Assembly (NCBI GenBank): GCA_014378525.1
Contig: JACMNL010000004.1
Span: 1-64,000, forward strand
Direction of reading: 5' to 3'
From: Bacteriovorax sp.
Lineage (GTDB): Bacteria > Bdellovibrionota > Bacteriovoracia > Bacteriovoracales > Bacteriovoracaceae
DNA: 64,000 bases
Shown: positions 43,303 through 44,998 of the stretch, in pieces
How the letters are laid out: every line of letters begins with the position of its first letter
Position numbering within the stretch: the first letter of the stretch is position 1
The notes under the pieces: generated by a model
Database searches by the model: none
What the model saw: the letters and a program-made list of their open reading frames with translations, nothing else
What the model was told of the DNA's origin: nothing
Made by a program: the position numbers and the translations under genes

Positions 43303-43881
43303 CTAAGAAAAGACCTGTTTATACTTCAACAATCTGTAGTCATTAACCGAGAAGTCCGGATCTTTCCTTTTCATTGAGAGAAATTCCTGATTTTTAACCA
43401 GCCCTCTCACTGCATTAGGAGATGGGGAGTATAAAATCGTATGCGGAATTTCCGGAAATTTTCCGATGTGTTTTCGGAATTCCTGATAGACATGTTTGGA
43501 GGTAAAAATAAGTTCAGAGAAGTTCTTTTTACGGATAATTTTTTCCAGTTCGTGATTATAAGTTTTATCGTACAAAGCAGAATCCAGGGCACTACCGTTT
43601 TTTCTTCTGCATGATAAGAGAATGTCAGCAATGGCGATATGATGTTCTGTTAAAAAAGATTTTATACTGCGTACACTATCTAGTTTTAAGTTGAAACATT
43701 CCCCGATGAGTCTCCACAATTTATTAGTGACGCCACCGTAATAAAACTCAATTTCATTTTCTTTTTTTTCATGATGTCGTTGAGGATTAGTGAATTTACC
43801 AATAGGAAAATTCCCAATAATTATTTTATCTGCATTCATTGGGACAAAAGGTTTATAGGGATTATATTCAACGATATCCAT
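43303..43881 (-). CDS. uracil-DNA glycosylase superfamily-like protein
   Basis: 192 residues from the ATG at 43881; a TTG one codon upstream is the alternative. The chain has KIIIGNFPIGKF near residue 20, where UDG-superfamily proteins have a G-x-x-P motif, FTSKHVYQEF in the middle and TILYSPSPNAVRG near residue 160, where the family's second motif (H-P-S or S-P-S) occurs. The fold and the spacing fit the superfamily, but the catalytic residues are atypical, so the substrate is open. It lies upstream of tamA on the same strand with a 44-nt gap. Confidence 0.55.
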   Translation of the reverse strand: MDIVEYNPYKPFVPMNADKIIIGNFPIGKFTNPQRHHEKKENEIEFYYGGVTNKLWRLIGECFNLKLDSVRSIKSFLTEHHIAIADILLSCRRKNGSALDSALYDKTYNHELEKIIRKKNFSELIFTSKHVYQEFRKHIGKFPEIPHTILYSPSPNAVRGLVKNQEFLSMKRKDPDFSVNDYRLLKYKQVFS

Positions 43882-44016
43882 CAATCATTATTCTTTCATG
43901 TTAAGAGCTTTTGTCAAAAAATAAACATGCAATATTGTGGGGCATGATTTTGCGGTTTTTTACCCCTTTGATCCGTAAGTAGTACGAAAATCCATACCTA
44001 ATACCTTCGAAAAGCT

Positions 44017-44032
44017 TGGCACAAAGAGTGCA
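44017..44032 (+). promoter_or_regulatory. sigma-54 (RpoN) promoter of a small RNA
   Basis: TTGGCAC with core TGGCAC (44017-44022), 5 bp AAAGA, GTGCA (44028-44032). GG and GC are exactly 12 bp apart. Only the first T of the TTGCA half differs from consensus. Transcription would start near 44043, five bases before a strong hairpin. No activator-binding sites were recognised upstream. Confidence 0.65.
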
Positions 44033-44042
44033 GCATAAAATG

Positions 44043-44180
44043 TGAGTTATCACAAAGCAATTTGTGATACGGGACGATAAGACAAGGCAACTATTTTATT
44101 ATGATCGCCATTGTGTAGACCTGAAACTCTGCTCCCAATCATCATTAATAAAATGCCACCTTCGGGTGGCCTTTTTATTT
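44043..44180 (+). ncRNA. candidate small RNA, sigma-54 driven, about 135 nt
   Basis: The predicted transcript begins near 44043. The first element is a perfect 9-bp hairpin, TATCACAAA (44048-44056) and TTTGTGATA (44061-44069), closed by a GCAA tetraloop of the GNRA class. The middle holds short nested pairs (GGGA with UCCC, GGC with GCC) around an AU-rich loop. The transcript ends in a GC hairpin and T-run. No long reading frame with a ribosome-binding site lies within it. It could be a free regulatory RNA, or a leader with an attenuator for the 67-residue gene that starts 16 nt after the terminator. I do not recognise an Rfam family. Confidence 0.55.
44153..44180 (+). terminator. strong rho-independent terminator of the small RNA
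   Basis: GCCACC (44155-44160), loop TTCG (a very stable tetraloop), GGTGGC (44165-44170), then CTTTTTATTT. It lies between the sigma-54 promoter and the AGGAGG site of the next gene. Confidence 0.9.
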
Positions 44181-44195
44181 AACAGGAGGAATTTA

Positions 44196-44399
44196 ATGAC
44201 TAAGACAAAAACATCAATCAAACCGGGACTTAAAGAAATTGTAGAAAGAAAAATTTCTGCAAATAACCACACTACTAATGAAAAAATTAAAAATAAAGAA
44301 CTGGCGCAACTGAAAGAATCCGAGGTTGCAACTTCTTCAGATCATCTGGACAATAAAATTTTCAAAACTACACGCGTTGGTTCCAACAGAGGCAAATGA
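44196..44399 (+). CDS. small basic hypothetical protein
   Basis: 67 residues from the ATG at 44196, preceded by AGGAGGAATTTA, an ideal ribosome-binding site; the longer frame starting at 44064 runs through the small RNA and terminator and is not used. The protein is Lys/Asn-rich and hydrophilic (MTKTKTSIKPGLKEIVERK, ends TTRVGSNRGK), without signal peptide. No family known. It overlaps the DUF924 gene by 4 nt (ATGA). Its transcription must read through the terminator or start just upstream. Confidence 0.65.
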   Translation: MTKTKTSIKPGLKEIVERKISANNHTTNEKIKNKELAQLKESEVATSSDHLDNKIFKTTRVGSNRGK

Positions 44400-44998
44400 T
44401 TATGAACTATATGGATATCATCGATTTCTGGTTCGAAGAAGTACTTCCTTCCCAGTGGTTCAAGGTGGATGATGCCCTCGATCTGAAAATGACTGAAAAA
44501 TATATTGCACTACACTCTTCTGTCGTGGCAGGGGAGTATTCCTATTGGAGAAATGAACCACTTGGAAGACTGGCCGAAATTCTTGTCATTGATCAATTTT
44601 CAAGAAATATTTATCGTGATGACCCCAAATCTTTTATCAACGATCCAATGGCACTGGTGCTGGCGCAGGAATGTATTCGGGGTGAATACCATAAAAATTT
44701 TTCACCTGAGCAAAAGTTATTTCTCTACTTGCCGTTCATGCACAGTGAATCGAAAGTCATTCACAATACAGCTTTACTTCTATATTCTGAAACTGGTCTG
44801 GAAGACAATCTCGACTTTGAATTACAGCACAAAGAAGTCATTGAAAAATTCGGTAGATTTCCGACAAGAAATTTTATTTTAGGACGCCAGTCTACTTCCG
44901 AAGAGATTGAATACCTGAAACAAATCGATGCTGCTTCTCTTGGTGAAAATAGCTGGCAAAGTATTTCAATCACCCAGGAAACAATCTCAATTCATTAA
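44396..44998 (+). CDS. DUF924 family protein
   Basis: 200 residues, cytoplasmic. DIIDFWFEEVLPSQWF at the N-terminus, GRLAEILVIDQFSRNIYRD, LYLPFMHSE and GRFPTRNFILGR are the well-known DUF924 motifs. The family is helical (TPR-like) and its function is unknown. The ATG overlaps the previous stop (ATGA), and AGAGG lies just before, so it is co-translated with the 67-residue protein. It overlaps the convergent hydrolase gene by 12 nt. Confidence 0.88.
   Translation: MIMNYMDIIDFWFEEVLPSQWFKVDDALDLKMTEKYIALHSSVVAGEYSYWRNEPLGRLAEILVIDQFSRNIYRDDPKSFINDPMALVLAQECIRGEYHKNFSPEQKLFLYLPFMHSESKVIHNTALLLYSETGLEDNLDFELQHKEVIEKFGRFPTRNFILGRQSTSEEIEYLKQIDAASLGENSWQSISITQETISIH

Follow-up and report, generated by a model that had tools for sequence, protein, structure and literature searches.

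A predicted sigma-54-dependent structured RNA of Bacteriovorax with sibling copies across its genus and a place upstream of a DUF924 operon

A stretch of 64,000 nucleotides (the window), part of a 3.6-Mb Bacteriovorax genome in 144 contigs, contains a predicted gene for a structured RNA of 137 nt (44043-44179) downstream of a sigma-54 promoter motif. The RNA looks real, and it belongs to a multi-copy family that is absent from Rfam and so far found in one genus related to known bacterial predators. Our preferred reading, to which we give a probability of about 0.6, is that of a sigma-54-dependent free small RNA whose promoter also feeds an operon by read-through. Sigma-54 RNA polymerase would make the ~137-nt RNA after activation by an enhancer-binding protein, and the RNA would be released at its own intrinsic terminator and most likely act on targets in trans, as a free regulatory small RNA, when the activator is on. 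In the window's clade the RNA cassette lies between the sigma-54 promoter and an apparently ancestral sigma-54 operon (a small ORF and a DUF924 gene), and the fraction of polymerases passing the terminator would yield the operon mRNA. Judged by the DUF924 protein, the closest named relatives are metagenome-assembled Bacteriovorax and Bacteriovoracaceae genomes. Genomes of the window's genus (n = 14) are given G-numbers below, G000 being the window genome. The features of the locus are the following.

43303-43884, minus strand: divergent upstream gene, weakly DNA-deoxyinosine glycosylase-like (TIGR04274, 49 bits, below the 80-bit cut-off)
43939-43966, no strand assigned: candidate enhancer (activator) region with GGGGCA (43939-43944), TTTTGCGG and TTACCCC (43960-43966), 56 bp upstream of the -24 element
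44016-44032, plus strand: sigma-54 -24/-12 element TTGGCAC-N5-GTGCA (spacer aaaga), a motif match that is kept in orthologues
44043, plus strand: predicted transcription start, placed 12 bp downstream of the -12 C
44048-44069, plus strand: 5' hairpin P1, 9 bp with a GCAA (GNRA) loop (TATCACAAA-GCAA-TTTGTGATA), an apparent clade-specific add-on
44071-44136, plus strand: conserved core, a three-way junction (covarying 14-row alignment A8)
44071-44074/44133-44136, plus strand: core stem P0
44082-44088/44107-44114, plus strand: core stem P2
44115-44119/44128-44132, plus strand: core stem P3
44147-44179, plus strand: intrinsic terminator, made up of an A-tract, GCCACC-UUCG-GGUGGC (44155-44170) and a U-tract
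44196-44399, plus strand: small ORF of 67 aa with Shine-Dalgarno sequence (SD) AGGAGG and ATG at 44196, 16 nt after the terminator
44396-44998, plus strand: DUF924 protein (PF06041, E 1.2e-55), the operon's second gene

The original prediction had named the promoter, the 9-bp GNRA hairpin and the UUCG terminator, and all three were found where it had placed them. The promoter element has its GG (44018-44019) and GC (44030-44031) doublets spaced by exactly 12 bp and is the only strict site within the 64-kb window. Across the 14 genomes, the strict motif TTGGCAYN6TGCW occurs at 370 sites versus 29 for the reversed pattern (40 versus 4 in the window's own genome), and every one of these genomes has a sigma-54 gene. 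A permissive scan of the window with two mismatches showed no enrichment of -24/-12 matches (51 found versus 55.6 expected), so only the strict form is informative. Many of 28 other strict sites precede small ORFs with an SD when inspected by eye, as real promoters should. The element is kept as TTGGCAY-N5-[GAC]TGCA in the four other orthologous sequences (two copies in G012 and one each in G003 and G008) and is also kept in the paralogous copies, with a weaker -24 in a few. The sigma-54 promoter originally proposed is thus strongly supported by motif enrichment, conservation at the orthologous loci and the distribution of the sigma-54 gene. Furthermore, the distance from the -12 C to the start of the core is 14-15 nt in all ten copies without the 5' hairpin (G006b, one of these, has a weak -24). 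At this spacing the core begins only a few nucleotides from the predicted start, which links the promoter to the fold. A search for sigma-70-like sites found none within 44043-44195; one lies upstream at 43911-43938 (9/12, no more than chance) and could feed the RNA too.

The segment 44043-44178 (136 nt) folds at -35.9 kcal/mol, and none of 200 dinucleotide shuffles folded as well (z -3.26). The terminator ends 110 nt past the hairpin, and a scan finds a terminator on both strands (2 versus 0.2 expected). The sole listed frame of at least 60 aa across the RNA (44064-44399) is the downstream ORF extended to an upstream GTG start; no SD was seen before this GTG, and such an extension is not listed for G003 or G008, the one in G003 not starting until the terminator. 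In some copies the RNA is crossed by other short frames, which vary between copies and are not conserved. The claim that the RNA holds no ORF with a ribosome-binding site therefore agrees with our finding of no SD-bearing or conserved ORF, and the ideal ribosome-binding site claimed for the gene at 44196 is present as its SD and ATG. A ribosome-paced leader peptide was rejected because no SD-bearing ORF was seen.

The hairpin that the original prediction had stressed turned out to be restricted in its distribution. It occurs in G000, G012 and G003, where the stem sequence differs and the loop is GCAA, GCGA or GAGA; the nine pairs of P1 are kept at 8/9 in G012a, 9/9 in G012b and 6/9 in G003. 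G008 lacks the hairpin, as do the nine paralogous copies with a promoter-to-core spacing of 14-15 nt. As far as these copies indicate, the GNRA hairpin is an add-on of the window's clade and the conserved part of the RNA is the three-way junction core. In the orthologues the core stems read GGRA/UUCC (P0), ACAAGGC/GCCAUUGU (P2) and GUAGA/UCUGC (P3), and on its own the core (44071-44136) folds to the three-way junction in all of the five sequences except G012a. Covariation among these five is modest, with 3 of 22 pairs changed on both sides and 46 of 500 shuffles equal; 85.5% of their cells are paired, as high as in none of 500 shuffles.

Alignment A8 extends the comparison to 14 cores, which represent at most 13 loci because G012a and G012b are probably strain variants of one locus. 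In A8, 91.9% of 221 cells are paired versus 83.3% in shuffles, and both sides have changed in 9 of 16 pairs (24 cells). None of 500 shuffles reached the percentage paired, the number of both-side-changed pairs or cells, or the covariation score, and 6 of 500 reached the number of pair types; these counts are not probabilities, since the aligned sequences are related. Versions with slid partners had 41-58% of cells paired. A8 leaves out G002b (64.8 bits, degenerate P0 and P3) and G011b (32 bits). When these two weaker copies are added (16 rows), 90.4% of 251 cells are paired and 11 of 16 pairs have changed on both sides, with 0 of 500 shuffles as high on all five measures. Conservation with compensatory change, which would support the predicted RNA, is thus seen in both alignments. 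The five compact copies behind model R2 (see below) have all 80 of 80 cells paired. RNAalifold unaided recovered P2 and P3 and did not call P0, and by our count no more than 9 of 14 cores formed the complete junction when folded as single sequences. No obvious conserved single-stranded seed was seen in the RNA.

The original prediction treated the RNA as a single gene of a family it could not recognise. The second part agrees with a search of Rfam (4227 families), in which nothing in the window matched at the gathering threshold and the window RNA scored 20.9 bits at best versus a threshold of 55; among the copies, the four scanned (L198, L199, L204 and L168) scored 25.1 bits at best versus 75. 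A c-di-GMP riboswitch, suggested by a similar-looking GGGACG... string, was rejected as neither GEMM nor any other Rfam covariance model matched. The first part did not hold, as the window RNA is one copy of many. A DNA search identified the orthologous locus in G012 (twice, each time at a contig end), G003 and G008. It is flanked there by the divergent gene and, on the opposite side, by a small ORF; DUF924 comes next wherever the contig extends far enough. The divergent neighbour is kept in G003 and G008 and in G012 is broken or ended by the contig edge. The start of G012:C239 and the end of G012:C242 (L010 and L009) look like diverged copies of one RNA locus with the upstream gene broken in one; G012a and G012b, at these two contig ends, are probably variants from mixed strains in the bin. 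Beyond the orthologues, DNA similarity was limited to short matches in the terminator part of the query.

Further copies were searched for with covariance models and a sequence pattern. Model R1 (core and terminator), run on the 129 genomes of the taxonomic family, matched in 81 at E<=0.1, and only six hits of at least 53.8 bits were taken as members. Widening the search to the order covered no genomes beyond these 129 and yielded nothing further. These included a G011 copy (53.8 bits) with promoter, core and terminator all present. Matches of 38 bits or less were taken as terminator-like noise; five of them (G002:C69, G005:C136, G013:C119, G002:C107 and G011:C43) later proved to be the ends of real or likely copies. 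A promoter-plus-core pattern matched 11 places in 10 of the 129 genomes, with zero matches throughout for the reversed control; the core was present in six, three of them new (one in G002 and two in G005), and L194 and L200-L203 were dropped because they lack the core fold. Model R2 (promoter and core) gave 13 matches in 8 of the 129 genomes, all within the genus, and the wider model R3 gave 12 matches in 8 of the 14 genus genomes. In a phylum search with strict filters, R3 matched in 7 of 368 genomes, all from this genus (1 of 181 genera). The window copy itself gets only 21 bits from R3, and the negative result for the rest of the phylum therefore applies to copies that lack the 5' hairpin. 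Both R2 and R3 miss G000 and G012, which R1 finds, and we think that the hairpin insertion is the cause.

A supported core was identified in 10 of the 14 genus genomes (G000, G001, G002, G003, G005, G006, G008, G011, G012 and G013), at one to three copies per genome with three each in G002 and G005, and no supported copy was found in G004, G007, G009 or G010. G006a, G007, G003b and G000b have the sigma-54 motif, a terminator and a similar layout with a weak or no core score and are regarded as candidates only. In some copies a further 3' domain of ~100-200 nt precedes the terminator. By eye, a second domain with a GGAA/UUCC-like long-range closure can be seen in L198, L199, L204, L238, L239, L242 and L243, most of which also have a GUAUUGU hairpin loop complementary to an upstream ACAAUAU. 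This domain may form a pseudoknot or have arisen by internal duplication of the core motif GGAACGAAAGAC.

A shared upstream motif offers a lead for an activator that may be common to the RNA copies. Among 20 RNA promoters, a set that counts the four candidates above, 14 have TT[N]CCCC in the 150 bp before them (14 of 16 supported copies and 0 of 4 weak candidates, one candidate having only 47 bp of upstream sequence). The motif was found upstream of 2 of 28 other sigma-54 sites, a sample of the 370 (Fisher 6.7e-6, for a motif picked post hoc after viewing copies that are related to one another), and in 4% of random 150-nt windows.

Several other sigma-54 sites stood out in their own right. L252/L266 and L253/L267 are tandem sigma-54 promoters ~400 bp apart, similar in G003 and G008; each promoter precedes what we read as a small secreted-peptide-like gene, and one promoter of each pair has TTTCCCC at -48. 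By eye, L269 has two hairpins with an AGGA loop (CACUCAGGAAGAGUG and UACGAAAGAGGAUUUUUCGUA), resembling CsrA sites, before an ORF, and L272 has similar AGGA-loop hairpins; both lie just downstream of strict sigma-54 sites. L257 and L262 are similar sigma-54-driven leaders or RNAs, rich in GGA (AGGAGAUCAAGGAUUGRCCUCCACGGAARUUCAAGGAAGAU).

The operon downstream of the window copy can be compared with its counterparts in sister species. DUF924 was found in 11 of the 14 genus genomes. All seven DUF924 genomes outside the window's clade have a strict -24/-12 element 278-333 nt upstream of the DUF924 match, without the RNA (loci L113, L114, L115, L116, L118, L120 and L126). There, DUF924 is the second gene and only 21-40 nt separate the -12 C from the first ORF, which leaves no RNA in that interval. 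The operon was thus probably under sigma-54 control before the RNA came to lie there. The first ORF of these seven loci is small, and Cys-rich in six (CxNCG...CxxC), G004 having fewer cysteines. By eye, the small ORF before DUF924 in the window's clade looks different from the Cys-rich ORF of the sisters; the window's ORF has no Pfam or NCBIfam match, and small ORFs stand at the corresponding place in G012, G003 and G008. From the end of the terminator to the start codon there are 13-16 nt in all five orthologous sequences. With at most 16 nt before the ATG and no sigma-70-like site in the RNA, the operon probably depends on read-through, and the position of the RNA argues that the window copy may also set, or at least tax, operon expression.

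This arrangement lends some support to an alternative in which the RNA is a dedicated cis leader, an attenuator or riboswitch whose core would sense a signal and gate passage of the terminator into the small ORF-DUF924 operon. Known terminator attenuators and riboswitch leaders are likewise structured and have a terminator just before the SD. An attenuating role had been raised in the original prediction, and its leader position stands: the terminator is close to the start codon in 5/5 sequences, and as the sisters' RNA-less operon has a sigma-54 promoter in 7/7 cases, the operon here is probably read through the RNA. The attenuation itself fared less well. When the terminator hairpin was forbidden, single-sequence folding found no alternative pairing that would serve as an antiterminator in any of the five orthologous sequences, so classical attenuation is left without a visible mechanism and an antitermination switch is not supported.

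What lies behind the other copies also bears on this alternative. A script detected a terminator behind 18 of the 20 copies and candidates, with G012a (imperfect stem) and G002b as the exceptions. A same-strand ORF lies directly behind 7 of the 14 A8 cores (the window, G012a, G012b, G003, G008, G005a and G005c), and G002b (L240, 1963-2054, minus strand), which has no detected terminator, runs into a 219-aa ORF; for such copies, action in cis may apply. By eye, the 219-aa ORF has a signal-peptide-like start, and L240 has an SD-preceded start codon where the long RNA copies have UUG or UAG. In G002c and G006b the ORF begins more than 100 nt beyond, and in G013 the start codon is further on, near the contig end. 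However, the copies in G011, G001, G002 and G005b share this core and terminator and are not directly followed by any plausible same-strand gene. The G011 copy lies between genes that we read as peptidase-like and, convergently, radical-SAM-like; no same-strand ORF of at least 40 aa was found in the 700 nt examined behind the G001 copy; and in G002 and G005b, which probably represent a single orthologous locus, another gene is convergent with the RNA, the listed same-strand frames overlapping the RNA or that gene. These four copies indicate that the RNA is not obligatorily a leader and argue that it works by itself, and we regard a dedicated cis leader as unlikely. Action as an anti-SD on the next gene was also rejected, as by eye the P3 loop CCUGAAAC is not conserved against SDs.

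It is also conceivable, with odds that we put a little lower again, that the RNA binds and sequesters a protein instead of base-pairing, which is how CsrB and CrcZ act. The fold persists through changes in the letters of its stems and loops, and the long paralogues contain several GGA motifs, some of them apparently in hairpin loops by eye. In contrast, the window RNA (44043-44179) has a single GGA, which lies in P0 and is predicted to be paired. That there is no RNA gene here, and that a chance promoter match precedes a terminator belonging to something else, is very improbable: permissive -24/-12 matches are as common as chance and the terminator would also pass for one on the minus strand, but strict-motif enrichment, covariation, the fixed promoter-to-core spacing and the confinement of R3 matches to this genus among 368 genomes all speak against it.

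Returning to a free small RNA with read-through into the operon, we tentatively extend this reading to the genus, at somewhat less than even odds: sibling sigma-54 RNAs would occur genus-wide with a common junction fold and activator site, and one of them would, through insertion, have come to lie between an ancestral sigma-54 promoter and the operon behind it. The Pseudomonas CrcZ/CrcY-type RNAs are sigma-54 dependent, have sibling copies and carry many Hfq/Crc-binding A-rich motifs; the window RNA resembles them in its predicted sigma-54 dependence and its siblings. It differs from attenuator and riboswitch leaders in having no antiterminator that we could find and in occurring elsewhere as the same element without a gene behind. 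The Vibrio Qrr RNAs are described as having a sigma-54 promoter that needs an enhancer-binding protein, LuxO (PMC10162802), with five sibling copies in V. harveyi (PMC8043402). Like these, the window RNA has a predicted sigma-54 promoter and sibling copies; unlike them, it has a three-way junction core, an operon-leader place and, in some copies, a long 3' domain. It is set apart from Qrr by the lack of any Rfam match at the gathering threshold. In Bdellovibrio bacteriovorus, a 445-nt merRNA with a c-di-GMP riboswitch and attack-phase sRNAs are reported, and three of eight sRNAs have a FliA motif (PMC3627812); an RpoN-like factor, bd0843, is described from the same species (PMC3464611). The window RNA is likewise a predicted noncoding RNA, in a relative of this predator, and differs in its sigma-54 element, its 137-nt length and the lack of an Rfam riboswitch match. 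Among the matches listed by a literature search, titles and the beginnings of abstracts mention no sigma-54 RNA for Bacteriovorax or Bdellovibrionota, nor this RNA.

The excess of strict sites (370 versus 29) suggests that the genus has a large sigma-54 regulon. The operon promoter with and without the RNA cassette provides a clean evolutionary comparison, and cis versus trans action is directly testable. If our reading is right, the copies form a new RNA family whose promoter, activator site and fold can each be tested. In the window's clade, one promoter would then emit both a diffusible RNA and a read-through operon, so that the dose of the RNA would be tied to the dose of the operon.
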